This document shows positions 11,785 through 44,526 of a stretch of 64,000 nt of DNA, in pieces (position 1 is the stretch's first letter; each line of letters begins with the position of its first letter). Both the position numbers and the translations under genes were made by a program. The notes beneath the pieces were generated by a model. That model did no database searches. It saw nothing but the letters and a program-made list of their open reading frames with translations, and was not told the origin of the DNA. Origin of the DNA: Chondrosia reniformis (lineage: Eukaryota; Porifera; Demospongiae; Chondrillida; Chondrillidae); contig OX359192.1 in NCBI GenBank assembly GCA_947172415.1, positions 6,868,401 through 6,932,400 on the forward strand, in the 5' to 3' direction.

Positions 11785-11786
11785 AA

Positions 11787-13896
11787 TTATACCTCACTCT
11801 CTGGTTCTATAGTCAGTGGCTGATCATGATGATCTGGAATAATTTCCGAATAGTCCCTTACATCTGACTGAGCTGAGTGAATATTCTCTGAGTCAATAAC
11901 AGTGTCATATATTGATTCTAATGTAATGGTAACAGCAGTGCCTGGCCTAACAGAGTTATAAGTGGGTTCAACTGATAAGGTGGACCTTTTATTACTGCTT
12001 CTTCTCTTACAAATAAACCAAATTACCAAGATGAGGTTCTCCCCTGCTATCAAAAGGAGTAAGATGAAGATGATGGTGCCAAAGACAGCAGACAAGATTT
12101 GTTCTCTTTCTGTATACATATTGGCTGCAGTTTCATTGCATGTTTCTGGAAAAACAGTTTGACTACCTTTAATACTGAGTATACTGTTGTTTTCCATTTC
12201 CTGTGTACGTAGTGTTGTGAGCAATTCACTGGTACTTGAAACTGAGGATGATTCAGGGCTGTTCTCTTGGTTGCTAGTAACATCTGTGTATATATAATGT
12301 GGAAGTAACACCAATGGATGTCCTGGGATCATGTTGCATTTAGACAGGGAATTTTGCTGTTTCAAAAATATTCAAAGTGTTATAGGCTTTCAACTAATAT
12401 TTGAGTACAAATGAAATCTTGTGAATGCATGGGAAAACACTTAGCTTCGAGCTAGTGTATGTACAGGATATACCCAGGCCATCAATATTATTGTACAATG
12501 GAGATTGCATATACCATATCCATGTATGTGGCTGTCAGTGATTTATTGAGCGTCAGTAACATATACATGGATAATTTGACCCAGAGGTCTTAATTCATCA
12601 AAGGAAAAGGAACAATTTAAACAAGACACAAAGAAACAATTTAAAGAAACAAATAAGTGGTCTATATAATATGTACATCTGCAATAGAAGTCCCATATAT
12701 AAAGAGAGGGAAAGGAATTAAGGCAGCTGCAAAAAGAGTGAAAGGAAGGCAGCCGTGAAGAGAGGGAAAGGAAGGAAGGCAGCTGCAAAGAGAGTGAAGC
12801 CATGCAGAGAGGGAAAGGAAGGCTGTTGTGAAGAGAAGGAAAGGAAGGCAGCCGTACATGAAGAGAGAGAAAGGAAGGCAGCCTTGAAGAGAGGGAAAGG
12901 AGAAAAACTGTTTATGGTACTGTATTATGCAGTTTTAAATGTGTGTGTCAATTATCCATGCAGTGCTACATGGGGCAAAATAGCCTTAGTGTGCAAAGCA
13001 CATGGAAGCACTTATAATAATAATAATAAAGTGCACCTGCATATAAATATGCATGATTAGTGTTTATATATAGACACATGCATTCCTGTATACCTGATGT
13101 GGATTTAACAGAATCTGAACTTGCAGTGGGTAGCAGGATATGTTCAGAAGTACTAGTACTCAGACTGATACTATAGACTAAAAAATTATACATTCATAAG
13201 GCATCGGTCATATATAGTTTATCCTTTGAAAAAAGCATACATGCACATCAATATATATATGACTTACTTTCTAGGAATGGTGCTTTAGTATAAACAACCT
13301 GCTGATTAACTGTTATTCTCTCTGTATCGCTGGGACTATAGTTTGCAACAGAATAATATGAATGGTCTCCTGCGGTGGCAAAAGGAATTTCTACTCGTCC
13401 ACTTGCACCTTGTGTAGGTAGGTAAAATCCTACTATATCTCCTGATTCATAAGTAGTTGCTACAGTTGGAGTTATTGTAAAGATATTAGTTGACGTTGTA
13501 CTATCTGTAACAATGACCATCTCGTTATAGACTCTAGTGTAGTCAATAGTATTTTCGTTACTGGCTATTTGTCTCCATATTTGCAGTTCCATTATTTTGG
13601 GATAATCAAGGATTCCGTCAAAATGGGTCACTTTCCATCTTAAAAATGTTGTGTTACCATTGCAAGAGAAGCTTAACGAAGGAACCAATGTAAATGACTT
13701 CGCTTGAAATGTACCTAGATGCGGATATGTAACGCTAGGATTCGAGATACAAGAAAGAGCTAACGATTTTTCTGTATATATAAAAGAAAAGATTTATTGC
13801 AGTAATTTAATCTTTATATGTATACTTGTAATAAATATACTTACCAAAAGAGGGAGAAAAGAGAACTACAACACTAAAGAATACGTGAATCCTCAT
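11787..13896 (-). CDS. Single-pass receptor A1, candidate recognition receptor family
   Basis: Minus-strand exons are 13896-13845, 13771-13268, 13177-13094 and 12283-11787. Phases agree throughout, giving 378 residues. Exon 1 is a signal peptide (MRIHVFFSVVVLFSPSF). Exon 2 encodes a beta-rich ectodomain with two cysteines, CNGNTTFLRW, ELQIWR, YTRVYNE and GDIVGFYLP. Exon 3 is a Ser/Thr-rich stalk. Exon 4 carries stalk, a transmembrane segment (ILSAVFGTIIFILLLLIAG then ENL), a KRRSSNKR stop-transfer, and a tail with YNSV, SIYDTV (fits ITIM SxYxxV) and YSEI. I do not recognise a named family; the ectodomain pattern recalls uncharacterised sponge extracellular domains. The receptor function is inferred from topology and tail motifs. 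Confidence 0.85.
12700..12905. repeat. Purine-rich minisatellite in a receptor A1 intron
   Basis: Imperfect repeats of a GAGAGGGAAAGGAAGGCAGC core lie in the intron between exons 3 and 4 of A1. The counterpart in A2 (18333-18535) differs in spacing and copy detail. Open frames here on either strand are repeat artefacts. Confidence 0.85.
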
Positions 13897-14169
13897 TACA
13901 TTTAAAAACTACTTGGAGATCTGCAATAAATGCTTACAAATAGGCAATTCGTTCCGTTTGGCCTGCATGCATCATTTTATATGCGTGAGCTCAGGAAATT
14001 ATATTCATATACGTGTCACAATACTTTTACAAGCGCATGCGCGTGCCTTGCAATTGGTTTTTAGGAGAGATACATATAGGACAAACAGATCTAGATAATT
14101 GGGCAATGTGAAGTATGATTAGATGGACATAGCACATGGCCCTTTCAGCACTTCAGTTGTTGTCCTTAG

Positions 14170-16282
<2,113 letters not shown>

Positions 16283-16859
16283 GACAATACATAATAATAG
16301 TGACTTCTTCATCTCATCAAAGCTGTCTCGTACAAGAACATCACAGTCATCCATCCAACCCCACCAACCTCTCTAAAATATTGATCCGCTGTCACTAGTG
16401 TCTTGTAATGAAATAGTACACACCCAAACAAACACACTAACAATCATATGTATTATATATTATATTAATTTGTTTAAACTCTTCATTTACAACTGTTTTG
16501 TTTCCTGCATTTGAAATGTTACAAAATACTTAAAATACTGTACATGCGTAGCTTGGAGTAATGCTATATATGCTGTTCAAGAAAATCAACATTTGTTGTT
16601 ACCAAATTTTAATATATGATATTGATGAATGTGAGGAATATATTATATTGACAAAAGCAATAATAACATGACATTGTGTATTGTATAAATCTGAAATAAA
16701 CACTAAAGTACATATGCAAAAACTTGAAAAGAATTTAGTTTGAAGTATATATATCCTCAAATGTATACTTCTTCCATGGCCACCTATATATACAAGATAA
16801 TGTGTATATGTAGCTACTACAAATATATGAAGTGAGTTTTTGTTGCGTTCATAATGAGA

Positions 16860-17099
16860 ACAGGATCAAATTTCAGGTTTCATATGGCATGAAACCTATT
16901 TGAAACTTCTTGTCAATGAACAGCCATGCTCAGCCAGGGTGCTCAAGAATGTGCTATTATAACAGATTAATTTCACAGGTTCAATTTTTAACAGCCCCCT
17001 TTCCAAATTTTATACATACTTTCATACCTTTTGAAACCTGGCTGTTCATAGAGTTTCAAATAGGTTTCATGCCTTCTGAAACCTGAAATTTGATCCTGT
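16860..17099. mobile_element. Foldback element 1, duplicate copy
   Basis: This copy of the inverted-repeat unit at 11226-11465 was carried by the segmental duplication. Both arms are preserved. Confidence 0.78.
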
Positions 17100-17187
17100 G
17101 GAGTATCCTAATTTATTGAGACTCAGCAACAATTGTATTTAAAAACATTATACACATGTTATATGAAGTGCAATGCGTATATACAAT

Positions 17188-17418
17188 CACAGGATCAAAT
17201 TACAGGTTTCAGATGGAATGAAACCTATTTGAAACTTCTTGAACGGCCAGGTTTCAAAGGGTGGACAAGTATGCATTAGGAGATTAATTTCACAAGTTTC
17301 AAGTTTTTCCCAGATCCTTTTCCAAGTTTATCATGTTTTCATGTCTTTTGAAACCTGGCAGTTCCCAAGAGTTTCAAATAGGTTTCATTCCATATGAAAC
17401 CTGTAATTTGATCCTGTG
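17188..17418. mobile_element. Foldback element 2, duplicate copy
   Basis: This copy of 11554-11784 ends 3 bp beyond the stop codon of receptor A2, so it too would lie in that gene's 3' UTR. Confidence 0.78.
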
Positions 17419-17420
17419 AA

Positions 17421-19528
17421 TTATACCTCACTCTCTGGTTCTATAGTCAGTGGCTGATCATGATGATCTGGAATAATTTCCGAATAGTCCCTTACATCTG
17501 ACTGAGCTGAGTGAATATTCTCTGAGTCAATAACAGTGTCATATATTGATTCTAATGTAATGGTAACAGCAGTGCCTGGCCTAACAGAGTTATAAGTGGG
17601 TTCAACTGATAAGGTGGACCTTTTATTACTGCTTCTTCTCTTACAAATAAACCAAATTACCAAGAAGAGGTTCTCCCCTGCTATCAAAAGGAGTAAGATG
17701 AAGATGATGGTGCCAAAGACAGCAGACAAGATTTGTTCTCTTTCTGTATACATATTGGCTGCAGTTTCATTGCATGTTTCTGGAAAAACAGTTTGACTAC
17801 CTTTAATACTGACTATACTGCTGTTTTCCATTTCCTGTGTACGTAGTGTTGTGAGCAATTCACTGGTACTTGAAACTGAGGATGATTCAGGGCTGTTCTC
17901 TTGGTTGCTAGTAACATCTGTGTATATATAATGTGGAAGTAACACCAATGGATGTCCTGGGATCATGTTGCATTTAGACAGGGAATTTTGCTGTTTCAAA
18001 AATATTCAAAGTGTTATAGGCTTTCAACTAATATTTGAGTACAAATGAAATCTTGTGAATGCATGGGAAAACACTTAGCTACGAGCTAGTGTATGTACAG
18101 GATATACCCAGGCCATCAATATTATTGTACAATGGAGATTGCATATACCATATCCATGTATGTGGCTGTCAGTGATTTATTGAGCGTCAGTAACATATAC
18201 ATGGATAATTTGACCCAGAGGTCTTAATTCATCAAAGGAAAAGGAACAATTTAAACAAGACACAAAGAGACAATTTAAAGAAACAAATAAGTGGTCTATA
18301 TATGTACATTTGTAATAGAAGTCCCATATATAAAGAGAGGGAAAGGAAAGCAGCTGCAAAAAGAGTGAAAGGAAGGCAGCCGTGAAGAGAGGGAAAGGAA
18401 GGAAGGCAGCCACAAAGAGAGTGAAGCTGTGCAGAGAGGGAACGGAAGGCTGTTGTGAAGAGAAGGAAAGGAAGGCAGCTGTGCATGAAGAGAGGGAAAG
18501 GAAGGCAGCCTTGAAGAGAGGGAAAGGAGAAAAACTGTTTATGGTACATGTATTATGCAGTTTTAAATGTGTGTGTCAATTATCCATATATGCAGTGCTA
18601 CATGGGGCAAAATAGCCTTAGTGTGCAAAGCACATGGAAGCACTTATAATAATAATAATAAAGTGCACCTGCATATAAATATGCATGATTAGTGTTTATA
18701 TATAGACACATGCATTCCTGTATACCTGATGTGGATTTAACAGAATCTGAACTTGCAGTGGGTAGCAGGATATGTTCAGAAGTACTAGTACTCAGACTGA
18801 TACTATAGACTAAAAAATTATACATTCATAAGGCATCGGTCATATATAGTTTATCCTTTGAAAAAAGCATATATACATGCACATCAATATATGACTTACT
18901 TTCTAGGAATGGTGCTTTAGTATAAACAACCTGCTGATTAACTGTTATTCTCTCTGTATCGCTGGGACTATAGTTTGCAACAGAATAATATGAGTGGTCT
19001 CCTGCGGTGGCAAAAGGAATTTCTACTCGTCCACTTGCACCTTGTGTAGGTAGGTAAAATCCTACTATATCTCCTGATTCATAAGTAGTTGCTACAGTTG
19101 GAGTTATTGTAAAGATATTAGTTGACGTTGTACTATCTGTAACAATGACCATCTCGTTATAGACTCTAGTGTAGTCAATAGTATTTTCGTTACTGGCTAT
19201 TTGTCTCCATATTTGCAGTTCCATTATTTTGGGATAATCAAGGATTCCGTCAAAATGGGTCACTTTCCATCTTAAAAATGTTGTGTTACCATTGCAAGAG
19301 AAGCTTAACGAAGGAACCAATGTAAATGACTTCGCTTGAAATGTACCTAGATGCGGATATGTAACGCTAGGATTCGAGATACAAGAAAGAGCTAACGATT
19401 TTTCTGTATATATAAAAGAAAAGATTTATTGCAGTAATTTAATCTTTATATGTATACTTGTAATAAATATACTTACCAAAAGAGGGAGAAAAGAGAACTA
19501 CAACACTAAAGAATACGTGAATCCTCAT
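17421..19528 (-). CDS. Single-pass receptor A2, near-identical copy of A1
   Basis: Exons are 19528-19477, 19403-18900, 18809-18726 and 17917-17421. Each has the same length as in A1 and all splice sites are kept, giving 378 residues. Differences from A1 are few: in exon 4, Asn-Ser-Ile-Leu becomes Ser-Ser-Ile-Val before the membrane segment, and Ile becomes Phe after GENL. The tyrosine motifs YNSV, SIYDTV and YSEI are unchanged. As for A1, the type I receptor role is inferred from signal peptide, ectodomain, membrane anchor and tail. Confidence 0.85.
18333..18535. repeat. Purine-rich minisatellite in a receptor A2 intron
   Basis: This is the counterpart of 12700-12905, with a slightly different arrangement of the AGAGGGAAAGGAAGGCAGC units. 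Such rapid change fits replication slippage after the duplication. Confidence 0.82.
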
Positions 19529-19764
19529 TACATTTAAAAACTACTTGGAGATCTGCAATAAATGCTTACAAATAGGCAATTCGTTCCGTTTGGCCTGCAT
19601 GCATCATTTTATACGAGTGAGCTCAGGAAATTATATTCATATACGTGTCATAATACTTTTACAAGCGCATGCGTGTGCCTTGCAATTGGTTTTTAGGAGA
19701 GATACATATAGGACAAACAGATTTAGATAATTGGACAATGTGAAGTATGATTAGATGGACATAG

Positions 19765-23970: not shown

Positions 23971-24895
23971 AGTTGTTGATTCTGAAAAGATATATATACA
24001 CCGGGGGCGTAAGAAGCAATTTGAAACTGGTCTAGCTAATAAATATTGTGGGTATAGTATACATTTTGCAAGTTTTTTTCAATTTTAATGTGTATGGTTT
24101 CATCTTGTCTGCAATGTCATTCTGAATTTTCTCCCCACTTACAAATTACCTCATGCATGCATCAGATGCTTCAACTTCATGGCACATTTGAATAACAGAT
24201 TATGAACAAAACAATGTTAAAAACACATTACAATACATTAGAACTTTGCAAAAATTGTTAAACATAGGACAAATGCCAACAGTTGTGCAGATACCTGAAC
24301 AATGATGAGGTATGGTTGGGTATAAGGTATATAGAGCCCAGGGTATCTTGAGGTAATGTTGCACTATTTAGGACTGTTGGAAATGAATGCATAAGATGGA
24401 AAATCTAACAAAAAAGTTATTAAAAGAACAATGCAAATATAATTATACGTATAATTTTGCAATTCGACTGTTTGAAGTTAAGCCAGTATTCCTATTGTCA
24501 AATGTAATCACCATCTTCCTCCTACATATGTACATACATGTACATATAGTTATATGAACAAAATAGATTATTGATACACGCATGTACGTATATAGCACAA
24601 TTGAAGTTAAATATTCGTATGACATATATGTGTAATGTTTCATATACATAGACTCAATAAACATTTAAATTATGTATACATAATATAAGCTATGTATGGT
24701 TTTATTGGGTTCCAATGGTATGAATCTTCTGAGGGTGCATGAGCACCTATATATATATTTTATATATGGCCTGAATTTTATGTAATGTATCTATACATAT
24801 CTATTAGATAGATCTACAGTGTATTACGTATGTCTTTGATTAAACTTTTATTTATACTGTATATGGATCAAAGTGACCACATTTCTTCATGTTGT

Positions 24896-26827
24896 TTAAA
24901 GTATATATATGCATGTGTTTCTATTACCACAGCACAATGCATGACATATATACGTACATACTTTTCTGTGCATGTCAGGTTCTACTGACTGATAGCAAGG
25001 ATTTGTCTCCATGACAACATTAGCACCCATTTTTGACTGGGTTGAGTCAACATCTTTAACAGTGGTATAATATACTGAATTGTCTGATCTCATGGTAGCA
25101 GTACTAGTAGCACTTGGGTTACTAGTGGGTTCAACTGATGAGATGGACCTTTTATTACTGTGTCTTCTCTTACTAATAAACCATATTACCAAGAAGAGGT
25201 TCTCCCCTGCTATCAAAAGGAGTAAGATGAAGATGATGGTACCAAAGACAGCAGACAAGATTTGTTCTCTTTCTGTATACATATTGGTCGCTACGGCTCC
25301 ATTACATGTTTCTGCAACTGGAGAGTGATAGGGAGAGGGAGTTGGTGAAGAGGTTCCAAATTCTGTACATTGTGAAAACAATATTGACCTCTGTTTGATC
25401 ATGAAAAATTAGTTAGACTGCCTTCAATATTGTTATTGTTCTCCATTTACTGCATGTGTATGTATTAATAGTACATATTGTGAGCAATTTACTGGTAACT
25501 GAAGCTGATGATGATTCAGAGCCATTCTCTTACAGATGATTGCTAGTAACATCTGCATGAATGATGTCAAGAGATACTTAGCACATTGAGACATGATTAC
25601 ATGGGTTAGCTCTCCTATATACGCCTGACAAGGTATAAATGCATAACTTTGAAAGTGGGAGTATATGCATGGTGTACATCACAAGTATATATTGCATACT
25701 TCACTACTCCTACTAAAGTTAGCATTTACTATATATAATTACTATAGTTATTAGTCTCATATTGGATATACCCTATATAAGACTTATTATGTGTATATAT
25801 ATGAAAATGTAACATATCACAGTCATTGATGTCATGCATATACTACTGCTGGCAATTAAAAAATCTTAAATCTTAAAATCTTATTACTAAAAAAATCTTA
25901 AAAATTAAAAAAACACGCCTTGCATTAATGATTTGTGGTCATAGCACTCTCACTAAATTTAACAATCAGTTGTAGACTTACCACCTGTTGAAGGATCACT
26001 AGTAGTTTGTGTCACAGTCACTGATGTCATACTACTGGTGATAAACTTAGTTTGCATTGTTGTTTTTGTGCCCATAGCACTCTCACTGTATGTTGATAAT
26101 ACAGATCTAACAGATAATGACATTTCTTTACTAGATGTAGAGATTGCTGTGACTGAAGGACAAAAGGACTTTAAAGAGTTATGCACAATATTGTCACATT
26201 ATACTAAGATAACTTACTTTGGAGAAATGGTGCTCTATTTCTGGACATAATGTTCAGTGGATTAATGCTTTCTTCTGAACTAGGACTACTAACTGTTACA
26301 TAATAATATGAATGGCCTTCAACACTACCAAATGGAACTTCAACTACTCTAGTTGCACCTTGTGTAGGTATGTAAAACCCTACTATATCTCCTGATTCAT
26401 AGGTAGTTGTTACAGTTGGAGTTATTGTAAAGATAGTAGAACTATATGTAACAATGACCATCTCGTTATAGAGTCTAGTGTAGTCAATATTGTTCCCTGA
26501 ACTGTTTGTTTGTCTCCATATCTGTAAATCGATTCTTCTAATAGGCGTATTAAGATCACCACCAAATTGAGTCACTTCCCATCTCAATGATGTTGTATTA
26601 CCAGAACAAGTAAAATTTAATGAAGGAATCAATACAAAAGAGTTCGCTTGAAATATACCTCGGGGACCTCCTGTAACACTTGGATTCGTTAAACAAGTAA
26701 GAGATGTCGATCCTGAAAAAGATATACCACAACAGATAGTTATTATGCGATGATCATATATAGCTGTATACTTACGGGTAGAAATAGAAAGGAGAGTAGC
26801 AATACAAAAGAAGAATATATCATTCAT
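24896..26827 (-). pseudogene. Receptor B, frameshifted before the membrane segment
   Basis: Exons 1 (26827-26776) and 2 (26712-26218) are intact, with signal peptide MNDIFFFCIATLLSIS and ectodomain FTCSGNTTSLRW and GDIVGFYIP. In exon 3 (from 26152) an 8-bp deletion relative to C-E follows GGKSTT, so the frame ends at once (Asp-Cys-stop). The exon 3 donor is also GCGTGT instead of GTATGT. Exon 4 (25317-24896) still encodes the membrane segment and NPCYQSV, but its own stop codon has shifted, extending the frame. The product would be a soluble ectodomain at best. I call it a pseudogene, with a secreted decoy as the alternative. Confidence 0.75.
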
Positions 26828-31350: not shown

Positions 31351-31385
31351 AAGAGTTGGTGTGCAATCAGCAATGCACATACCTG

Positions 31386-31757
31386 ATTATAGAATACAGT
31401 GAGGATTGTTGGGGGGCAGGGTTGTAGTAAGAGACTGAGGTGGATGCATGCTTTGAAGTCCTTGAGGTTGTGTGTATGACTGAGGCTGCATGCTTGGAGG
31501 AGGCACTACAGACTGAGGTTAGGAGGAGACGAGTAAGAGTTTGAAGATGAGATTGTCTTCACTTTCTTGTTCTCTTGGTCATTCAAGCACATTGCCAAAG
31601 CAAGTTCTAGTTCTTCTTGGTTCCTTCAAGTCATCAGTCTTTGTTGTTGTTGTTGCTGCTCTAGTGGAAGTGGGCACTTGGGATTCCTGTGCCAGTGCAC
31701 TGGAGAGGTACTCAGGAGGCAAACCACTGTCTAGTGCAGCCATTTGGCTCCCACTGG
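31386..31757 (-). pseudogene. Rearranged HGS exon 6 fragment of unit B
   Basis: The ends match HGS exon 6 (TATAATCAG donor side near 31386; [16 protein letters not shown] near 31742-31690). The middle is replaced by about 100 bp (31421-31518) of exon 8 Gln-rich repeat sequence, so the exon is a mosaic and cannot encode HGS. Confidence 0.75.
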
Positions 31758-32794
31758 AGCTGTTGATTATGTATATACACCTGCGGCCTAGGAAGCAATT
31801 TGAAACTGGTCTAGCTAATAAATATTGTGGGCATAGTATACAGTTTTAAGTTTTTTTTCAATTTTAATGTGTATGGTTTCATCTTGTCTGCAATGTCATT
31901 CTGAATTTTCTCCAGACTTACAAATTACCTCATGCATGCATCAGATGCTTCAACTTAATGACACATTTGAATAACAGATTATGAACAAAACAATGTTAAA
32001 AACACATTACAATACATTAGAACTTTGCAAAAATTGTTAAACATATGACAAATGCCAACAGATGTACAGATACCTGGACAATGATGAAGTATGGTTGGGT
32101 ATAAGGTAGAGCCCATGCAGGGTGTCTTGAGTTAATGTTGTGCTATTTAGGACTGTTGGAAATGAATGTATATGATGGAAATTTTAACAAAAAAGTTAAA
32201 AGAACAATGCAAATATAATATACGTATAATTGTGCAATTTGACTGTTTGAAGTTAAGTTAGTATTCCTATTGTCAAATGTAACCACCATCTTCCTCCTAC
32301 ATATGTACATACATGTACATGTAGTTATATGAACAAAATAGATTATTGATACACGCATGTACGTATATAGCACAATTGAAGTTAAATATATATATATGCG
32401 TAATGTTTCATAGAGATTCAATTTAACCTTTAAATTACGTATACATATAATATAAATTTGCAGGTGCACATTAACATACGTACTAATTTCCTATATAAGC
32501 TATGTATGGTTTTATAATAATACATTGAGTTCCAATGGTATGAATCTCCTGAGGGTGCATAAGCCTTTATATATATATTTTACTGATAATTGTATATGGT
32601 CTGAATTTTATAATGTAATGTATATATGTTTCTATATCTATTAGATAGATCTACTGTATTATGTCTTTGATTAAAATGTTTTATTTTATATTTAAGGGAT
32701 CAAAGTGACCACATTTTTTCAAATTTATGTTTATATATACATGTTTCTATTACCCCAGCACACAGTGCATGACATATATACCTTTCTGTACATG
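31758..32794. other. 3' flank of receptor C (unit start)
   Basis: This 1-kb AT-rich segment is repeated as 23971-24895, 36750-37754 and 41690-42671 in the other units. It holds no gene I can support. Shared blocks include CAATTTGAAACTGGTCTAGC and ATTAGATAGATCTACTGTAT. Confidence 0.7.
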
Positions 32795-34651
32795 TCATGC
32801 AGGTTCTACTGACTGATAGCAAGGATTTGTCTCTATGACAACACTAGCACCCATTTTTGACTGGGTTGAGTCAACATCTTTAACAGTGGTATAATATACT
32901 GAATTGTCTAATCTCATGGTAGCAGTACTAGTAGCACTTGGGTTACTAGTGGGTTCAACTGATGAGGTGGACCTTTTATTACTGTGTCTTCTCTTACTAA
33001 TAAACCAAACTACCAAGAAGAGGTTCTCCCCTGCTATCAAAAGGAGTAAGATGAAGATGATGATACCAAAGACAGCAGACAAGATTTGTTCTCTCTCTGT
33101 ATACATATTGGTCGCTATGGCTCCATTACATGTTTCTGCAACTGGAGAGTGATAGGGAGAGGGAGTTGGTGAAGAGGTTGTAAATTCTGTACATTGTGAA
33201 AACAACAATATTGACTTCTGTTTGATCATGAAAAATTAGTTTGACTGCCTTCAATATTGTTAACTAAACTATTGTTCTCCATTTACTGCATGCATGTGTA
33301 TGTATATTATGAGCAATTTACTGGCAACTGAAGCTGATGATGATTCAGGGCCATTCTCTTGCGGAGGATTGCTAGTAACATCTGCATGGATGATGTCAAG
33401 GGACACTTAGCACATTGAGACATGATTACATGAGTTAGCTCTCCTATACACGCCTGACAAGGTATATAACTTTGAAAGTGAGAGTATATGCATGGTGTAC
33501 ATCACAAGTATATATATATTGCATACTTCACTACTCCTACTAAAGTTAGGCATTTACTACTTTAAGTTTAATTATATAAGTCTCATATTGGATATACATA
33601 TATAGTGATAAGATTTTATGTATATAAGATATAAGACTTAAATTAAGTGTATTATATGTAAATGTAACATATCACATTCATTGATGTCATGTATTACTGC
33701 CGGCAAATTAACATACCTTGCATTAATGATTTTGTGGTCATAGCACTCTCACTAAGTTTAGCAATGTCTGTTTCAGTTGTAGACTTACCACCTGTTGAAG
33801 GATCACTAGTAGTTTGTGTCACAGTCACTAATGTCATACTACTGGTGGTAAACTCAGTTTGCATTATTGTTTTTGTGCTCATAGCACTCTCACTGTATGT
33901 TGATAATACTGATCTAACAGATAATGACATTTCTTCACTAGATGTGGGGATTGCTGAGACTGAGGGACAAAAGGACATTAAGAGTCACATACGATATTGT
34001 CACAATGTAAAGATAACTTACTTTGAAGAAATGGTGCTCTAGTTCTGAACACAATGCTCTGTGTATTAAGTATTTCTTCTGAACTAGGACTACTAGCTGA
34101 TACATAATAATATGAATGGCCTTCAGCACTACCAAATGGTAAGTCAACTGCTATTGCAGTTGCACCTTGTGTAGGTATGTAAAATCCTACTATATCTCCT
34201 GATTCATAAGTAGTTGCTACAGTTGGAGTTATTGTAAAGATGTTAGTTGATGTTGTACTCTCTGTAACAATGACCACCTCGTTATAGACTCTAGTGTAGT
34301 CAATATTATTATTCCTTATACTTATTGTTTGTCTCCATATCTGTAAATCGATTCTTCTAGGCGTATTAGGATTACCACCAAATTGAGTGACTTCCCATCT
34401 CAATGATGTTGTATTACCAGAACAATTAAAATTTATTGAAGGAACCAGTACAAAAGAGTTCGCTCCAAATATACCTAGGTGACCTCCTGTAACACTTGGA
34501 TTCGTTAAACAAGTAGGAGATATCTCTTCTATTGAAGCAAACACATTAAACAGTAACAGATGAATTGCAAAGGATATTCTGTAAAACTATAAAACTTACC
34601 AAAAGTAAGAAAAAGGAGTACAACAGTACGGAAGACCAGGTGACCATTCAT
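32795..34651 (-). CDS. Single-pass receptor C
   Basis: Exons are 34651-34600, 34528-34022, 33959-33717 and 33141-32795, phase-consistent, 382 residues. Parts are signal peptide MNGHLVFRTVVLLFLT, ectodomain (NFNCSGNTTSLRW, DLQIWRQ, GDIVGFYIP, HSYYYVS), an 81-residue Ser/Thr-rich stalk exon, and the membrane segment ILSAVFGIIIFILLLLIAG followed by ENLFLVVWF and SKRRHSNKR. The tail has SVYYTTV (fits VxYxxV) and NPCYQSV (an NPxY motif). All four exon junctions have GT-AG signals. This is the best-preserved copy in the right-hand cluster along with E. Confidence 0.85.
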
Positions 34652-34710
34652 TTTATTTTTACCTGCTTACCAACTGCGAGATGTCGTACTTACCTGGTAG
34701 CTATACGGGC

Positions 34711-34716
34711 CACGTG
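34711..34716. promoter_or_regulatory. Conserved CACGTG box upstream of receptor C
   Basis: The palindromic E-box lies in GGCCACGTGATCGATA, 60 bp upstream of the receptor C start codon. The same box with the same neighbours occurs upstream of D and E. Conservation may reflect recent duplication rather than selection. Confidence 0.4.
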
Positions 34717-34959
34717 ATCGATACTATATTCATAATGCGGACAGAAAATTGACACTATTGGTAATGCATGCATGGGACCTTATATTAATTTTAAGTACTG
34801 GACCTTTCTCTATATCAATCTCCCCCTGCAAAAATTAAATGACTTTCAGCTTGTATAATATAGAGCTGCAAATATACAGTCCCAACAGTAGGTCTCAAAA
34901 GGATTAGCATTTTAGGAATTACATATAGTTTTACACAAACTCAGCAGTTCAACTATATT

Positions 34960-36737
34960 TTAGTCAAAAGATATAAGTTCAACAGACTTCTGTGTGGAGG
35001 TAGACGTGGGTCTCTCTGGTGGAGGCAGGTTGTATTGCTGATACACAGGGTAACCCCTTGGGGCCTGGGCTTCACTGCCATACTGCATTTGTGTAGACAT
35101 GCTATTAGCAGGCACGGCTCCCTGGGGCAGTGAGGATGGCATTTGGAACTGCTGTTGAGTGCCTCCAGGTGGTGCTGTGGATCCCAAGGGGTAGCTGGGA
35201 GGGGGAAGGTCTTGCCATGTAGATGGTTCTTGTGTAAATTGCTGCTGCTGTGACTGCTGGTAAGGCTGACTGAAAGCTGTTATATTGTCAGTTTGTGGCT
35301 GGAAGGATGTGGGTTGGTAGACCTCAGTTATGTTATGAGACTGAAAGCTCTGGGGCTGCATGCTTTGTGGAGGTGGGAAGTAGGAGGGTTGAGTTGTAGT
35401 AAGAGACTGAGGTGGCTGCATGCTTTGAAGTCCTTGAGGTTGTGTGTATGACTGAGGTGGCTGCATGCTTTGAAGTCCTTGAGGTTGTGTGTATGACTGA
35501 GGTGGCTGCATGCTTTGAAGTCCTTGAGGTTGTGTGTATGACTGAGGTGGCTGCATGCTTTGAAGTCCTTGAGGTTGTGTGTATGACTGAGGCTGCATGC
35601 TTGGAGGAGGCACTACAGACTGAGGTTGACCTGACTGGACACTCAGTCCACCAAACTGCTTCTCAAACAGTTGCTGCTCATAGTTCTTTCTCTGCTGTTC
35701 TTCTATTTCTTTACTTTGCTGCATGCGCTGGTGATATAAGCTATGCTGAAATGCTAGATCATCTTGCCTCTGTTTCTTAAGGAGGTCTTGGTAGGCACTT
35801 TCCTCATCCTTCAGCTGCTGTAGGAGAGCTCTCTTCTGCTCAACCTGAAGTCTAGCGAGCATAAGCATCTCCTCTTGCTGCTGCTTCATCTTCTCCTTGT
35901 GTTGTCTTCTCATGGCATCAAGGGAGATGCGAGCTTCCTTTACTTCATCCAGCTTTCTAAGAACACCCTCCTCCTTCATCTTCTCCTGCTGTTTGTCCTC
36001 TATGGCAGCCAGTAGGGAGGGGTGCATGGATGTGAGTGTCTGGAACATTGACTGCACAGAAACATCTGTAGCAATGCTACGACCACTGGCATGGACTTCC
36101 TGCATACGTGCAACAAACATATCAATAGTACTCCTTAAGCTGGTAAGCATAGGGTTCTCCCCCTCTACAGAGGGTGTGACCACAGGGACGGGGGCCATGG
36201 GTTGATTGGTTGGGGGCTGGACTGCCCTTGATTGCTGGTTTTGTTGGCTGCGTTGCTCCCAGAAACTGCGATCCATGTACTTGGACAACTGGAGAAGAAA
36301 GAAAATGACAAAGTTTCAAATCTGATAGTTATGTTTACAAACTGTAAAAATGTGTGCTAAACTTACATCTGGACTTTCTTCCTGCTCAGGAATCTGAAAA
36401 AATAGAGTTAGTTGTTATAATTAAAAGTTGGTGTGTTTATCAGTGATGCACATACCTGATTATAGGTGATGGAGGAATACAGTGAGGGCTGTTGGGGGGT
36501 AGGGGCAGGGGGTGGGGCTTTACTGGTACTAGGAGGAGATGAGTAAGAGTTTGAAGATGAGATTGTCTTCACTTTCTTGTTCTCTTGGTCATTCAAGGAC
36601 ATTGCCAAAGCAAGTTCTAGTTCTTGTTCCGTCTTTGTTGTTGTTGTTGCTGCTCTAGTGGAAGTGGGCACTTGGGATTCCTGAGCCAGTGCACTGGAGA
36701 GGTACTCGGGAGGCAAACCACTGTCTAGTGCAGCCAT
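34960..36737 (-). CDS. N-terminally truncated HGS paralogue C (no VHS or FYVE)
   Basis: Exons are 36737-36456, 36393-36367 and 36288-34960, with intact frames and donors, 545 residues from the first in-frame Met ([19 protein letters not shown]). It keeps the ubiquitin-interacting motif ([17 protein letters not shown]), the helical HRS core, the Gln-rich region with four 15-residue repeats, and the C-terminal ELISFD clathrin-box-like end. It lacks the membrane-binding VHS and FYVE domains because the duplication breakpoint lies in exon 6. A splice acceptor (CTTTTTCAG) now precedes the Met. Whether it is expressed is unknown; it may be a neutral remnant or a cytosolic competitor of HGS. Confidence 0.6.
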
Positions 36738-36749
36738 TTGGCTCCCACT

Positions 36750-37754
36750 GGAGCTGTTGATTCTGAAAAAGATATATACACCTGGGGTGTAGGAAGCAAT
36801 TTGAAACTAGTCTATATAGCTAATAAATATTGTGGGCATAGTATACATTTAGCAAGTTTTTTTTTCAATTTTAATATGTATGGTTTCACCTTGTCTGCAA
36901 TGTCATTCTGAATTTTCTCCCCACTTACAAATTACCTCATGCATGCATCAGATGCTTCAACTTCATGACACATTTGAATAACAGATTATGAACAAAACAA
37001 TGTTAAAAACACATTACAATACATTAGAACTTTGCAAAAATTGTTAAACATAGCCAACAGTTGTGCAGATACCTGGACAATGATGAGGTATGGTTGGGTA
37101 TAAGGTGGAGCCCAGGGTATCTTGAGGTAATGTTGTGCTATTTAGGACTGTTGGAAATGAATGTATAAGATGGAAATTCTAACAATAAATAAATAACAAT
37201 GCAAATATAATATACGTATAATTGTGCAATTTGACTGATTGAAGTTAAGTTAGTATTCCTATTGCATGTAACCACCATCTTCCTCCTACATATGTGCATA
37301 CATGTACATGTAGTTACGCATATTAACAAAGTAGATTATTGATACACGCATGTGTAATGTTTCATATAGATTCAATTTAACCTTTAAATTACGTATACAT
37401 ATAATATAAATTTGCAGGTGCACATTAATATAAGTCCTAATTTCCTATATAAGCTATGTATGGTTTTATATATACATTGAGTTCCAAAGGTATGAATCTT
37501 CTGAGGGTGCATAAGCCTATATATATATATTACTGATAATTATATATGGTCTGAGTTTTATAATGTAATGTATATATGTATCTATATCTATTAGATAGAT
37601 CTACTGTATTATGTCTTTGATTAAACTGTTTTATTTGTTATTTAAAGGATCAAAGTGACCACATTTTTTCAAATTCATGTTTATATACATGTTTCTATTA
37701 CGCCAGCACAGTGCATGACATATATATATATATATATGTACCTTTCTGTACATG
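36750..37754. other. 3' flank of receptor D
   Basis: This AT-rich repeated segment corresponds to 31758-32794. It contains a short (TA)n run near 37720-37737. No gene is seen. Confidence 0.65.
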
Positions 37755-39632
37755 TCATGCAGGTTCTACTGACTGATAGCAAGGATTTGTCTCCATGACA
37801 ACATTAGCACCCATTTTTGACTGGGTTGAGTCAGCATCTTTAACAGTGGTATAATATACTGAATTGTCTAATCTCATGGTAGCAGTACTAGTAGCACTTG
37901 GGTTACTAGTGGGTTCAACTGATGAGATGGACCTTTTATTACTGTGTCTTCTCTTACTAATAAACCAAATTACCAAGAAGAGGTTCTCCCCTGCTATCAA
38001 AAGGAGTAAGATGAAGATGATGGTACCAAAGACAGCAGACAAGAGTTGTTCTCTTTCTGTATACATATTGGTCGCTATGGCTCCATTACATGTTTCTGCA
38101 GCTGTATAGAGTGATATGGAGAGGGAGTTGGTGAAGAGGTTGCAAATTCTGTACATTGTGAAAACAATATTGACCTCTGTTTGATCATGAAACATTAATT
38201 TGACTGCCTTCAATATTGTTAACTAAACTATTGTTCTCCATTAACTGCATGCATGTGTATGAATATTGTGAGCAATTTACTGGTAACTGAAGCTGATGAT
38301 GATTCAGGGCTGTTCTCGTGCAGATGATTGCTAGTAACATCTGCATGAATGATGTCAAGAGACACTTAGCACATAGAGACATGATTGCGCGGGTTAGCTC
38401 TCCTATACACGCCTGACAAGGTATAAATGTATAGTTTTGAAAGTGGGAGTATATGCATGGTGTGCATCACAAGTATATATTGCATACTTTACTACTCCTA
38501 TATATATACTAAAGTTAGGCATTTACTACTTTAAGTTTAATTATATAAGTCTCATATTGGATATACATATATAGCGATAAGATTTTATGTATATAAGATA
38601 TAAGACTTAAATTAAGTGTATTATATGAAAATGTAACATATCACAGTCATTGATGTCATGTACTACTGCTGGCAAATTAACACGCCTTGCATTAATGATT
38701 TTGTGGTCATAGCACTCTCACTAAGTTTAGCAATACCTGTTTCAGTTGTAGACTTACCACCTGTTGAAGGATCACTAGTAGTTTGTGTCACAGTCACTAA
38801 TGTCACACTACTGGTGATAAACTTAGTTTGCATTGTTGCTTTTGTGGTCATAGCACTCTCACTGTATGTTGATAATACAGATCTAACAGGTAATGATATT
38901 TCTTCACTAGATGTAGGGATTGCTGAGACTGAAGGACAAAAGGACATTAAGAGTCATGCACAATATTGTCACAATATACTGATCTTTAGTAAGATAACTT
39001 ACTTAGGAGAAAAGGTGCTCTATTTCTGAACACAATGTTCAGTGTATTAATGGTTTCTTCTGAACTAGGACTACTAGCTGATACATAATAATACGAATGG
39101 CCTTCAACAGTACCAAATGGAAAGTCAACTCGTCCAGTTGCACCTTGTGTAGGTAGGTAAAATCCTACTATATCTCCTGATTCATAAGTAGTTGCTACAG
39201 TTGGAGTTATTGTAAAGATGTTAGTTGACGTTGTACTATCCGTAACAATGACCGTCTCATTATAGACTCTAGTGTAGTCAATATTATTACTATTCCCTGC
39301 ATTTTTTGTTTGTCTCCATATGTGCAATTCGATTCTTCTAGGCGTATTAGGAGTACCAGTAAATTGAGTGACTTCCCATCTCAATGATGTTGTATTACCA
39401 GAACAAGTAAAATTTATTGAAGGAATCAGTAAAAAAGAGTTGGATTGAAATGTACCTAGGTGATATCCTGTGATACTTGGATTCGTTAAACAAGTAGGAG
39501 ATATCTCTTCTATTGAAGCAAACACATCAAACAGTAACAGATGAATTTCAAAGGATATTCTATAAAACTATAAAACTTACCAAAAGTAAGAAAAAGGAGT
39601 ACAACAGTACGGAAGACCAGGTGACCATTCAT
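37755..39632 (-). CDS. Single-pass receptor D, altered exon 3 donor
   Basis: Exons are 39632-39581, 39509-39003, 38928-38686 and 38101-37755, 382 residues if spliced as in C and E. Ectodomain markers are NFTCSGNTTSLRW, ELHIWRQ, YTRVYNE and GDIVGFYLP. The membrane segment and tail match the family (SVYYTTV, NPCYQSV). The exon 3 donor reads AAG|GCGTGT instead of AAG|GTATGT, a GC donor with a weak context. If intron 3 is retained, translation would stop 10 residues later (GVLICQQ-stop), before the membrane segment, giving a secreted form. It may be full-length by GC-AG splicing, secreted, or a decaying copy. Confidence 0.7.
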
Positions 39633-39697
39633 TTTAGTTTTACCCTACTCACTAATGCGTAGACGAGATGCCGTACAAACTTGGTATATAGCCAGGC

Positions 39698-39703
39698 CAC
39701 GTG
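39698..39703. promoter_or_regulatory. Conserved CACGTG box upstream of receptor D
   Basis: An E-box in GGCCACGTGATCGATATACT lies 66 bp upstream of the start codon. It is the counterpart of the boxes at 34711 and 44592. Confidence 0.4.
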
Positions 39704-39945
39704 ATCGATATACTATAAAGTGGTCCATAATGCGGACAAAAAATTGACTCTATTGGTGATGCATGCATGGGACCTTATATTTATTTATTTAAAGTACTGG
39801 ACATTACTCTATATCAATCTCCCCCTGCAAACATTAAATAACTTTCAGTTTGTATATGTAGAGCTGCAAATATACAGTCCCAACAGAATTAGCATTTTAG
39901 GAATTACATAATAGTTTTACACAAACTCAGCAGTTCAACTATATT

Positions 39946-41670
39946 TTAGTCAAAAGATATAAGTTCAACAGACTTCTGTGTGGAGGTAGACGTGGGTCTC
40001 TCTGGTGGAGGCAGGTTGTATTGCTGATACACAGGGTAACCTCCTGGGGCCTGGGCTTCACTGCAATACTGCATTTGTGTAGACATGCTATTAGCAGGTA
40101 CGGCTCCCTGGGGCAGTGAGGATGGCATTTGGAACTGCTGTTGAGTGCCTCCAGGTGGTGCTGTGGATCCCAAGGGGTAGCTGGGAGGAGGAAGGTCTTG
40201 CCATGTAGATGGTTCCTGTGCAAATTGCTGCTGCTGTGACTGCTGGTAAGGCTGACTGAAAGCTGTTATATTGTCAGTTTGTGGATGGAAGGATGTGGGT
40301 TGGTAGACCTCAGTTATGTTATGAGACTGAAAGCTCTGAGGCTGCATGCTTTGTGGAGGTGGGAAGTAGGAGGGTTGAGTTGTAGTAAGAGACTGAGGTG
40401 GCTGCATGCTTTGAAGTCCTTGAGGTTGTGTGTATGACTGAGGTGGCTGCATGCTTTGAGGTCCTTGAGCTTGTGTGTATGACTGAGGTGCCTGCATGCT
40501 TTGAAGTCCTTGAGGTTGTGTGTATGACTGAGGCTGCATGCTTGGAGGAGGCACTACAGACTGAGGTTGACCTGACTGGACACTCAGTCCACCAAACTGT
40601 TTCTCAAACAGTTGCTGCTCATAGTTCTTTCTCTGCTGTTCTTCTATTTCTTTACTCTGCTGCATGCGCTGGTGATATAAGCTATGCTGAAAAGCTAGAT
40701 CATCTTGCCTCTGTTTCTTAAGGAGGTCTTGGTAGGCACTTTCCTCATCCTTCAGCTGCTGTAGGAGAGCTCTCTTCTGCTCAACCTGAAGTCTAGCGAG
40801 CATAAGCATCTCCTCTTGTTGCTGCTTCATCTTCTCCTTGTGTTGTCTTCTCATGGCATCAAGGGAGATGCAAGCTTCCTTTACTTCATCCAGCTTTCTA
40901 AGAACACCCTCCTCCTTCATCTTCTCCTGCTGTTTGTCCTCTACGGCAGCCAGTAGGGAGGGGTGCATGGATGTGAGTGTCTGGAACATTGACTGCACAG
41001 AAACATCTGTAGCAATGCTACGACCACTGGCATGGACTTCCTGCATACATGCAACAAACATATCAATAGTACTCCTTAAGCTGGTAAGCATAGGGTTCTC
41101 CCCCTCTACAGAGGGTGTGACCACAGGGACAGGGGCCATGGGTTGATTGGTTGGGGGCTGGACGGCCCTTGATTGCTAGGCTGCGTTGCTCCCAGAAACT
41201 GCGATCCATGTACTTGGACAACTGGAGAAGAAAGAAAATAACAAAGTTTCAAATCTGATAGTTATGTTTACAAACTGTAAAAATGTGTGCTAAACTTACA
41301 TCTGGACTTTCTTCCTGCGCAGGAATCTGAAAAAATAGAGTTAGTTGTTATAATTAAGAGTTGGTGTGTTTATCAGTGATGCACATACCTGATTATAGGT
41401 GATGGAGGAATACAGTGAGGGCTGTTGGGGGGTAGGGGCAGGGGGTGGGGCTTTACTGGTACTAGGAGGAGATGAGTAAGAGTTTGAAGATGAGATTGTC
41501 TTCACTTTCTTGTTCTCTTGGTCATTCAAGGACATTGCCAAAGCAAGTTCTAGTTCTTGTTCCGTCTTTGTTGTTGTTGTTGCTGCTCTAGTGGAAGTGG
41601 GCACTTGGGATTCCTGAGCCAGTGCACTGGAGAGGTACTCGGGAGGCAAACCACTGTCTAGTGCAGCCAT
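39946..41670 (-). pseudogene. HGS 3'-fragment copy D (frameshifted)
   Basis: Exons 6 (41670-41389), 7 (41326-41300) and 8 (41221-39946) are recognisable. Early in exon 8, an 8-bp deletion in the SQQNQQSR region (near 41178) shifts the frame. The long downstream frame can therefore only be reached from an internal ATG at 41139. Three copies of the 15-residue Gln-rich repeat are present. Exon 6 is almost identical to that of copy C. There are no VHS or FYVE exons. Confidence 0.82.
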
Positions 41671-41689
41671 TTGGCTCCCACTGGAGCTG

Positions 41690-42671
41690 TTGATTCTGAA
41701 AAAGATATATACACCTGGGGTGTAGGAAGCAATTTGAAACTAGTCTATATAGCTAATAAATATTGTGGGCATAGTATACATTTAGCAAGTTTTTTTTTCA
41801 ATTTTAATATGTATGGTTTCACCTTGTCTGCAATGTCATTCTGAATTTTCTCCCCACTTACAAATTACCTCATGCATGCATCAGATGCTTCAACTTCATG
41901 ACACATTTGAATAACAGATTATGAACAAAACAATGTTAAAAACACATTACAATACATTAGAACTTTGCAAAAATTGTTAAACATAGCCAACAGTTGTGCA
42001 GATACCTGGACAATGATGAGGTATGGTTGGGTATAAGGTGGAGCCCAGGGTATCTTGAGGTAATGTTGTGCTATTTAGGACTGTTGGAAATGAATGTATA
42101 AGATGGAAATTCTAACAATAAATAAATAACAATGCAAATATAATATACGTATAATTGTGCAATTTGACTGATTGAAGTTAAGTTAGTATTCCTATTACAT
42201 GTAACCACCATCTTCTTCCTACATATGTGCATACATGTACATGTAGTTACGCATATTAACAAAGTAGATTATTGATACACGCATGTGTAATGTTTCATAT
42301 AGATTCAATTTAACCTTTAAATTACGTATACATAATATAAATTTGCAGGTGTACATTAATATAAGTACTAATTTCCTATATAAGCTATGTATGGTTTTAT
42401 ATATACATTGAGTTCCAAAGGTATGAATCTTCTGAGGGTGCATAAGCCTATATATATATTTTACTGATAATTATATATGGTCTGAGTTTTATAATGTAAT
42501 GTATATATGTATGTATATCTATTAGATAGATCTACTGTATTATGTCTTTGATTAAACTGTTTTATTTGTTATTTAAAGGATCAAAGTGACCACATTTTTT
42601 CAAATTCATGTTTATATACATGTTTCTATTACCCCAGCACAGTGCATGACATATATACCTTTCTGTACATG
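41690..42671. other. 3' flank of receptor E
   Basis: Repeated AT-rich flank, nearly identical to 36750-37754. No gene is seen. Confidence 0.65.
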
Positions 42672-44526
42672 TCATGCAGGTTCTACTGACTGATAGCAAG
42701 GATTTGTCTCCATGACAACATTAGCACCCATTTTTGACTGGGTTGAGTCAGCATCTTTAACAGTGCTATAATATACTGAATTGTCTAATCTCATGGTAGC
42801 AGTACTAGTAGCACTTGGGTTACTAGTGGGTTCAACTGATGAGATGGAACTTTTATTACTGCGTCTTCTCTTACTAATAAACCAAATTACCAAGAAGAGG
42901 TTCTCCCCTGCTATCAAAAGGAGTAAGATGAAGATGATGGTACCAAAGACAGCAGACAAGAGTTGTTCTCTTTCTGTATACATGTTGGTTGCTATGGCTC
43001 CATTACATGTTTCTGCAGCTGTAGAGTGATAGGGAGAGGGAGTTGGTGAAGAGGTTGCAAATTCTGTACATTGTGAAAACAATATTGACCTCTGTTTGAT
43101 CATGAAAAATTAGTTTGACTGCCTTCAATATTGTTAACTAAACTATTGTTCTCCATTAACTGCATGCATGTGTATGAATATTGTGAGCAATTTACTGGTA
43201 ACTGAAGCTGATGATGATTCAAAGCCGTTCTCTTGCAGATGATTGCTAGTAACATCTGCATGAATGATGTCAAGAGACACTTAGCACATTGAGACATGAT
43301 TACATGGGTTAGCTCTCCTATACACGCCTGACAAGGTATAAATGCATAACTTTGAAAGTGGGAGTATATGGTGTGCATCACAAGTATATATTGCATACTT
43401 CACTACTCCTATATACTAAAGTTATAGGCATTTGCTACTTTAAGTTTAATTATATAAGTCTCATATTGGATATACATATATAGTGATAAGATTTTATGTA
43501 TATAAGATATAAGACTTAAAATATGTGTATTATATGAAAATGTAACATTTCACAGTCATTGATGTCATGTACTACTGCTGGCAAATTAACATACCTTGCA
43601 TTAATGATTTTGTGATCATAGCACTCTCACTAAGTTTAGCAATGTCTGTTTCAGTTGTAGACTTACCACCTGTTGAAGGATCACTAGTAGTTTGTGTCAC
43701 AGTCACTAATGTCACACTACTGGTGATAAAGTCAGTTTGCATTATTGTTTTTGTGCTCATAGCACTCTCACTGTATGTTGATAATACTGATCTAACAGAT
43801 AATGACATTTCTTCACTAGATGTAGGGATTGCTGTGACTGAAGGACAAAAGGACATTAAGAGTCATGCACAATATTGGCACAATATAAAGATAACTTACT
43901 TTGAAGAAAAGGTGCTCTAGTTCTGAACACAGAGTTCAGTGTATTAAGTCTTTCTTCTAAACTAGGACTACTAGCTATTACATAATAATATGAATGGCCT
44001 TCAGCAGTACCAAATGGAACTTCAACTTGTCCAATCTCCCCTGCTGTAGGTATATAAAATCCAACTATATCTCCTGATTCATAACTAGTTGCTACAGTTG
44101 GAGTTATTGTAAAGATGTTAGTTGATGTTGTACTCTCTGTAACAATGACCATCTCGTTATAGACTCTAGTGTAGTCAATATTGTTCCCTATAGTTATATG
44201 TCTCCATATCTGGAAATCGATTCTTCTATCTATAGGCGCATTAGGAATACCACCAAATTGAGTCACTTCCCATCTTAATGATGTTGTATTACCGGAACAA
44301 GTAAAATTTATTGAAGGAATCAGTACAAAAGAGTTCGATTGAAATATACCTTGGTTACCTCCTGTGATACTTGGATTCGTTAAACAAGTAGGAGATATCT
44401 CTTCTATTGAAGCAAACACATCAAACAGTAACAGATGAATTTCAAAGGATATTCTATAAAACTATAAAACTTACCAGAAGTAAGAAAAAGGAGTACAACA
44501 GTACGGAAGACAAGGTGACCATTCAT
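42672..44526 (-). CDS. Single-pass receptor E
   Basis: Exons are 44526-44475, 44403-43900, 43837-43595 and 43018-42672. All junctions are GT-AG and in phase, 381 residues. Parts are signal peptide MNGHLVFRTVVLLFLTS, and an ectodomain with two cysteines in NFTCSGNTTSLRW plus an upstream PTCLTNPS, then DFQIWRH, NIDYTRVYNEMV, GDIVGFYIP and HSYYYVIASS. A Ser/Thr stalk exon, one membrane-proximal cysteine (AETCNG), the membrane segment LLSAVFGTIIFILLLLIAG + ENLFLVIWF, SKRRRSNK, and a tail with SVYYSTV and NPCYQSV follow. The stop codon of HGS lies 313 bp upstream, on the same strand. Confidence 0.86.

Follow-up and report, generated by a model that had tools for sequence, protein, structure and literature searches.

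The window analysed here is a stretch of 64,000 nucleotides on chromosome 4 of the demosponge Chondrosia reniformis (6868401-6932400), which holds no N and belongs to the odChoReni1.1 assembly, reported to be built from HiFi reads with a quality value (QV) of 69.8 (PMC12181767). The genome comprises 117,379,552 bases in 15 contigs (14 chromosomes and the mitochondrion). On the minus strand of the window lie six genes, A1, A2, B, C, D and E, which, as judged from sequence comparison, are kinase-less counterparts of a nearby array of receptor tyrosine kinase (RTK) genes. All six were rebuilt by splice modelling as four-exon genes (positions are those of the window):

11787..13896, minus strand: kinase-less receptor A1 (exons 13845-13896, 13268-13771, 13094-13177 and 11787-12283; 378 aa; splice model, scan of membrane span and tail)
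17421..19528, minus strand: kinase-less receptor A2 (exons 19477-19528, 18900-19403, 18726-18809 and 17421-17917; 378 aa; splice model, near-identical to A1)
24896..26827, minus strand: kinase-less receptor B (exons 26776-26827, 26218-26712, 25982-26152 and 24896-25362; 394 aa with an extended C-terminus; splice model)
32795..34651, minus strand: kinase-less receptor C (exons 34600-34651, 34022-34528, 33789-33959 and 32795-33186; 373 aa; splice model)
37755..39632, minus strand: kinase-less receptor D (exons 39581-39632, 39003-39509, 38758-38928 and 37755-38101; 358 aa; splice model)
42672..44526, minus strand: kinase-less receptor E (exons 44475-44526, 43900-44403, 43667-43837 and 42672-43063; 372 aa; splice model)

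The models have GT at 18 of 18 donors, AG at 18 of 18 acceptors and 18 phase-1 introns, and the frames of all six genes are open, encoding proteins of 358-394 aa. This confirms the common four-exon plan and exon phases that a sequence-only reading of this DNA had proposed. B-E share the earlier exon-3 donor, GTG/GTAAGT; an alternative downstream GT donor is present only in C and E. Receptor B reads through the stop codon of C-E (24896-24975, minus strand) and thereby gains about 25 aa of Cys-rich sequence at its C-terminus.

A genome-wide comparison with the ectodomain of E, in which 25 candidates were scored, yielded 21 matches at E<=0.01. These are the six window genes, a group of eight at C4:6.49-6.55 Mb, a single match on C5, a fragment on C2 and another five that are distant. 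The six copies described by the sequence-only reading are real, but they do not make up the whole family. The eight matches on chromosome 4 are tandem RTK-type genes situated about 330 kb from A1, to which the E ectodomain is 76-82% identical in seven cases and 68% identical in the eighth. Behind the ectodomain these array genes go on to encode a different membrane span, followed by a juxtamembrane exon rich in tyrosine and by the exons of a tyrosine kinase; pattern searches found exons with the N-lobe and HRDIAARN seven times and DFG exons eight times, and the joined exons of one array member match PF07714 at E=1.2e-58. EGFR was rejected as a special relative of the array kinase, this top PDB match being a chain with two matching kinase stretches. 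The window genes thus carry an ectodomain homologous to that of an RTK and lack the intracellular tyrosine kinase domain, as their proteins end after a tail of 66-91 aa and none of the kinase matches listed (134 of 1104 candidates scored) falls in the window.

Comparison of window and array DNA by blastn delimits the shared part as follows:

33792..34693, minus strand: 5' module of C (short 5' flank and exons 1-3) matching the RTK array
38761-39689, minus strand: 5' module of D matching the RTK array
43670-44583, minus strand: 5' module of E matching the RTK array
25985-26705, minus strand: RTK-array-matching module of B, exons 2-3 only

In C, D and E the homology starts 11-57 bases before the ATG, takes in the first two exons together with their introns, and extends over part or the whole of exon 3; in B it is limited to exons 2-3 and in A to exon 2. 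Seven of the array genes are 85-90% identical in DNA to C-E and 82-87% identical to B, while the array gene R6504 reaches 77-79%. No match extends beyond the exon-3 donor in any window-array comparison. The homology runs as far as this donor with four of the eight array genes when B, C or E is compared and with three of the eight when D is, and otherwise ends within exon 3, where the array stalks vary in length. In the array, exon 3 runs on past the shared donor point through stalk and span, except that in R6538 a stop codon comes first.

A kinase also follows the ectodomain at six of the eight further loci whose downstream DNA was examined (C5:1.02, C4:8.70, C8:7.97, C4:8.37, one gene at C4:8.17, and C5:7.59), although at C4:8.37 it relies on a single kinase search and at C5:7.59 the ectodomain match itself is weak (E 0.004). 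At the remaining two, C8:7.86 and C14:4.35, no kinase motif was found in frames of at least 60 aa over about 5 kb downstream. Further ectodomain matches, beyond these eight loci, are the C2 fragment, C14:4.33, C6:8.18, C4:5.94 and the remaining genes at C4:8.18-8.19. As exons are shared with the array and a kinase follows the ectodomain at six of these eight loci, the window genes are best described as kinase-less RTK counterparts. The RTK is the common state among the loci examined, and the kinase-less form would most simply be the derived one, in an unrooted comparison.

The two halves of the window genes differ in their apparent age. Between A1 and B-E the synonymous divergence (dS) of exon 2 is 0.57-0.65 (lower bounds 0.38-0.45), whereas in 53 gap-free codons of exon 4 it is 0.03-0.06 (upper bounds 0.10-0.18), with bootstrap intervals disjoint from those of exon 2; this value replaces an earlier one of 0.16-0.20 for the membrane part of A1, which came from an alignment gapped near its start. 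Since silent divergence between A and B-E is thus about ten-fold apart in the ectodomain and membrane exons, the modules have different histories and appear to have been exchanged. The exon-2 dS of E against five array RTKs is lower, 0.10-0.26, and its ectodomain is accordingly closer to the RTKs than to A, while its membrane exon occurs otherwise only in A and the sister genes. Indeed, exon 4 was found six times in the genome, always in the window receptor genes (one further row at E 0.036 was left uncounted). Among C, D and E, divergence amounts to 9.7% in exon 2, 4.7% in exon 3, 4.5% in intron 3, 2.9% in exon 4, 2.8% in intron 1, 2.6% in exon 1 and 1.4% in the adjoining HGS frame.

Recombination within exon 2 was assessed in 11 genes, excluding R6504. 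Agreement is greater between neighbouring sites than between those far apart (PHI-like p 0.003), the four-gamete test finds 742 of 1275 site pairs incompatible, and a run test gives p<0.01 in 3 of 55 gene pairs when polymorphic sites are used and in 4 of 55 with informative sites. A Sawyer-type run test over exons 1-3 had p<0.01 in 32 of 66 pairs, but most of the runs among the 16 rows printed lie in exon 1 and intron 1, which is attributed to the divergent rows R6504 and K_B, and the test was not used. Our reading of these data is that the kinase-less 3' module may have captured an RTK 5' module one or more times, or alternatively that the 3' module may have been homogenised, with later reshuffling of exon 2.

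The ectodomain also stands out in its rate of change. The pooled pairwise ratio of non-synonymous to synonymous divergence (dN/dS) of the ectodomain is 1.00 in B-E and 1.17 in seven RTKs, as against 0.08, 0.00 and 0.02 for the RTK kinase exons (n=7, 7 and 8) and 0.19 for the juxtamembrane exon (n=7). In B-E, the part up to and through the span has a dN/dS of 0.30, and the tail has too few silent changes to be judged; the stalk exon reaches 2.07 on few changes (dS 0.030), and nothing is drawn from it. The array gene R6514, which carries a frameshift at the end of exon 2, was excluded from the pooled RTK ectodomain ratio and the site tests but retained in the ratio over 12 genes, the ratios of A to other genes, the trees, the run test on exons 1-3 and the exon-2 recombination test. 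The site tests compared the codon models M1a and M2a in an implementation of our own, a comparison that recombination can inflate; the tests on B-E plus RTKs did not include A1, A2 or the C5 outgroup. M2a is favoured over M1a with a likelihood-ratio statistic (LRT) of 81 over 11 genes, of 46 and 44 without indel-rich columns, and of 41 when each third of the exon is given its own tree; for B-E alone it is 11.0 (P 0.004) and for the seven RTKs 62. The controls show no positive selection in the same test, with an LRT of 0.5 for the kinase and 0 for the juxtamembrane exon. The site models hence support positive selection at some sites of the ectodomain in both classes, and what is solid in this result is how the ectodomain contrasts with the kinase and juxtamembrane controls.

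The encoded proteins share one layout. Exon 1 is 52 bp long in all six genes and encodes a short hydrophobic leader, by eye a putative signal peptide; the sequence-only reading had claimed a signal peptide, and for this the leader speaks in all six genes, while a hydropathy scan of the six proteins flagged the membrane span and not the exon-1 leader. Exon 2 (495-507 bp) encodes the ectodomain, exon 3 a Ser/Thr stalk and exon 4 the span and tail. The A1 ectodomain is 61-63% identical to those of B-E, and those of B, C and D are 76-81% identical to that of E. Invariant in all six are two cysteines, the GNTT of CxGNTT, LRW, IWR, YESGDIVGFY and the APFL end. Each protein has a single hydrophobic segment with a GEN motif inside it, encoded as follows in E:

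42672..43063, minus strand: exon 4 of E, membrane span with buried GEN and YxxV tail, with a counterpart exon in the other five genes

After the span, 66-91 aa remain as a tail, bearing YNSV, YDTV and YSEI in A, and YTTV or YSTV plus YQSV in B-E, the latter as an NPxY-like NPCYQSV. The YxxV/I motifs exceed those of shuffled tails in five of the six proteins (P 0.008 in A1, 0.008 in A2, 0.040 in C, 0.031 in D and 0.031 in E) and not in B (P 0.155). One match per tail to the immunoreceptor tyrosine-based inhibitory motif (ITIM), taken as [SIVL]xYxx[IVL], is present in all six, a motif so short that such a match is weak evidence. The CxGNTT...W core, the single span and the YxxV/I tails named by the sequence-only reading were thus found throughout.

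By sequence, the ectodomain belongs to no catalogued family. No Pfam match exceeds the curated cut-off and neither NCBIfam nor PDB sequences match, and these searches accordingly returned no housekeeping or structural family, the finding that would have spoken against a recognition receptor. DUF1287, the best Pfam match (E 0.002; 18.3 bits against a cut-off of 25), was rejected, as was ECSCR, a weak match below its cut-off. No immunoglobulin (Ig) model matches at E up to 1 in two window and four distant ectodomains, a result from sequence profiles that is compatible with a divergent Ig fold. The AlphaFold2 model of the six window ectodomains has a mean confidence (pLDDT) of 51; of 257 Foldseek matches to it at E<=10 none reaches E<=0.001, the best having E 0.20 with a TM-score of 0.13, and no fold assignment was drawn. 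Literature searches, confined to open-access papers, brought up no title, opening part of an abstract or passage that describes a kinase-less/RTK family of this kind in sponges, and the passages available from PMC8662651 and PMC11999971 name no such ectodomain. Of the proposal that the genes form an undescribed sponge receptor family, this much holds: the animal is a sponge, the ectodomain matches no Pfam, NCBIfam or PDB family, and its selection pattern fits a recognition surface. It is not a family of its own, the ectodomain being that of an RTK family of which the six genes are kinase-less relatives.

Several features of the surrounding DNA bear on how the genes multiplied:

8491..14132: first copy (unit 1) of the duplicated A unit, with 98.8% identity to the second; it also includes the 3' exons of a gene on the plus strand
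14133..19764: second copy (unit 2) of the duplicated A unit, immediately adjoining unit 1 in head-to-tail order
31520..46553: tandem units of receptors C, D and E, about 4.9-5 kb each, with HGS/Hrs C-terminal exons upstream of the receptor

A1 and A2 represent one recent 5.65-kb tandem duplication of 98.8% identity, and their proteins differ at three residues; the duplication at 8491-19764 may be a leftover haplotype duplication. Just behind A1 and A2 lies a repeat pair of about 250 bp with inverted symmetry (GGATCAAATT...CAGGTTTCA; 11226-11794 and 16860-17428) and of mobile-element-like appearance. A fourth, more diverged unit, with B, is located at about 24.0-28.8 kb. Since the units of C, D and E carry 3' exons of HGS/Hrs, the receptors have multiplied partly along with the end of a housekeeping gene. 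An Hrs_helical match falls in the HGS copy of unit E, upstream of which VHS-encoding exons are present. The truncated C-terminal HGS/Hrs copies co-duplicated with C and D (34960-36315 and 39946-41175, minus strand) have open frames, unlike that of unit B (27328-28723, minus strand), which is frameshifted. Pairwise dN/dS among the HGS copies of the C, D and E units is 0.16-0.24; those by C and D are possibly functional short Hrs fragments, or the result of recent gene conversion from the full gene. Further along the window (52640-53092), a tandem repeat of about 37 bp, its copies 99.6% identical, gives rise to long repetitive hydrophobic frames.

Within the RTK array, some copies are defective: R6514 has its frameshift at the end of exon 2, R6538 has a GC donor and, ahead of the span, a stop in frame, and R6551 has no N-lobe and HRD exons of the kind detected in the seven other genes. 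These defects are indicative of birth and death, and R6538 could encode a soluble ectodomain. Elsewhere, at C4:8.172-8.192 Mb, there are four apparent genes with two ectodomain matches apiece, the one read leading into a tyrosine kinase.

The explanation that we consider somewhat better than even is that the six genes encode kinase-less partner receptors of the sponge RTK array. More tentatively, and at rather below even probability, the two classes may constitute a sponge paired-receptor system, in which an RTK and a kinase-less, tyrosine-tailed partner trade a diversifying and hitherto unmodelled ectodomain by exon exchange, a vertebrate-like regulatory design that would have arisen independently in an animal lineage that branched off early. 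If the six genes encode partner receptors of the array, the fast-changing ectodomain would be displayed on two chassis, one with its own kinase and one with a short tyrosine tail, and both would bind the same fast-changing ligand, be it a microbe, a symbiont or a polymorphic sponge surface molecule. On engagement or clustering, the partner RTK or else a cytoplasmic tyrosine kinase might phosphorylate the tail tyrosines, and the SH2 proteins recruited in this way would damp, counterbalance or re-route the RTK signal. The buried acidic Glu of the span may in turn pair with a partner carrying a basic span, an intramembrane partner being suggested since an acidic residue would be unusual in an isolated span.

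Several observations weigh against this explanation or parts of it. With regard to exon exchange, B is without the first exon common to C-E and the array, and the divergence among C, D and E is raised outside exon 2 as well (intron 2 7.5%, upstream sequence 7.0%). The best tract shared between a kinase-less gene and an RTK, D with R6520, is borderline, with a global p of 0.05-0.08 after correction. When exons 1-3 are taken together B-E form one clade (100/99), so that a single capture fits as well as repeated exchange; the tree of exon 2 alone splits B-E, but one clade is not rejected there (AU p 0.22), and multiple origins of B-E are therefore not claimed. With regard to selection, the dN/dS of the ectodomain exon over 12 genes is 1.09 with a bootstrap range of 0.80-1.50 and so not significantly above 1, one-ratio estimates on trimmed alignments are lower still (0.66-0.67 for 11 genes, 0.75 for B-E and 0.82 for the seven RTKs), and A against other genes gives 0.36-0.63, at higher divergence. 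Owing to the recombination in exon 2, the exact P values of the site models are unreliable. As to the signalling ends, the 53 exon-4 codons have a dN of 0.05-0.06 between A and B-E, as large as their dS, so constraint on the span is not evident in this comparison, and conservation of GEN in an exon so little diverged lends it weak support. The single ITIM-like match per tail also assigns the tails to neither an inhibitory nor an activating class.

The same evidence may be read in other ways. The window genes may act as decoys or as dominant-negative co-receptors for an RTK that serves development or binds a growth factor, dimerising through the shared ectodomain and damping its signalling with no immune or allorecognition role. 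Decoys of such a kinase-less layout are known among RTKs, and the ectodomain and stalk shared with the array fit one; we nevertheless hold this to be rather unlikely, since the ectodomains of growth-factor receptors are usually conserved, whereas here both classes have pairwise dN/dS of about 1 and positively selected sites, and since a pure decoy has no need of the YxxV/I motifs that have been retained. The interpretation offered by the sequence-only reading, that the six genes themselves encode self/non-self specificity as stand-alone allorecognition receptors, is in keeping with a tandem array, with rapid ectodomain evolution and with a sessile animal, and sponges are described as telling self from non-self grafts (PMC5450542). 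As the ectodomain is shared with the RTKs, however, any such specificity would be shared too, and a word search of the available main text of the Amphimedon graft study finds neither "receptor" nor "tyrosine kinase"; we regard this interpretation as unlikely.

YxxPhi and NPxY are known sorting signals, and the YxxV/I of all six tails and the NPCYQSV of B-E could accordingly belong to endocytic or scavenger receptors that drive the uptake of symbionts or particles. This is judged improbable, as the same tetrapeptides can be SH2-binding sites and hence are not diagnostic, while the adjoining copies of HGS/Hrs, an endosomal sorting protein, are accounted for by co-duplication. Least of all do we expect the genes to be truncated RTK copies drifting without function after local duplication under relaxed constraint. 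An ectodomain pairwise dN/dS near 1, defects in at least three of the eight RTK-array copies and a span dN as large as dS between A and B-E are what such drift would leave, but it sits poorly with the intact frames and splice sites of all six kinase-less copies, with a dN/dS of 0.30 for the B-E part up to and through the span, and with an ectodomain in which 95 of 188 alignment columns (12 genes, gappy columns included) are without a non-synonymous difference and M2a outperforms M1a.

The molecular basis of self/non-self and symbiont recognition in sponges is an open question, and few receptor candidates in sponges are known to bear a signature of selection that can be measured. If the paired-receptor explanation is right, vertebrate immunity would not be alone in having invented matched receptors that share a fast-changing ectodomain but differ in their signalling ends. 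The analysis supplies concrete linked loci on chromosome 4, the kinase-less array and the RTK array, as well as a defined candidate recognition exon with apparently positively selected sites and a regulatory logic that can be tested.

Compared with the RTK array, the window genes are alike in exons 1-3 (C-E) or exons 2-3 (B) and differ in the absence of kinase exons and in another membrane span and tail. An account of the origins of immunity mentions an RTK with an Ig-like ectodomain from the sponge Geodia cydonium (cited in PMC12018476); its Ig-like domains, according to that description rather than a sequence comparison, set it apart from the present ectodomain with no Pfam Ig match. Immune receptors with an ITIM or the corresponding activation motif (ITAM) resemble the window genes in their short YxxV/I tails, each window tail having its [SIVL]xYxx[IVL] match. 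Unlike them, the window tails contain a single such match and no canonical ITAM, position +3 being mostly V instead of the I/L of the consensus; coupling to phosphatases or Syk is a feature of those receptors, and the likeness of the window tails lies in motif sequence.

The closest parallel may be the CEACAM paired receptors, which are described as having similar ligand-binding regions, different cytoplasmic signals, recombination of the ligand-binding exon and diversifying selection (PMC5112662). The window genes and the RTK array together likewise combine very similar ectodomains with different signalling ends, and the site models point to positive selection on the presumed ligand-binding domain, in an implementation of our own, with recombination present and a whole-exon ratio not above 1. 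At the level of gene sequence the sponge set thus resembles paired receptors, of which it is a candidate member, these being defined also by a common ligand and opposing signals. The two systems differ in that the ligand domain of CEACAM is Ig-V and the sponge ectodomain has no Pfam match, and in that CEACAM partners carry ITIM or ITAM (PMC5112662) while one of the sponge classes carries a tyrosine kinase domain. They are alike in their linked genes, similar ectodomains, different signalling ends and tyrosine-motif tails, and in diversification accompanied by recombination, which affects the ligand-binding exon in CEACAM (PMC5112662) and exon 2 in the sponge genes.

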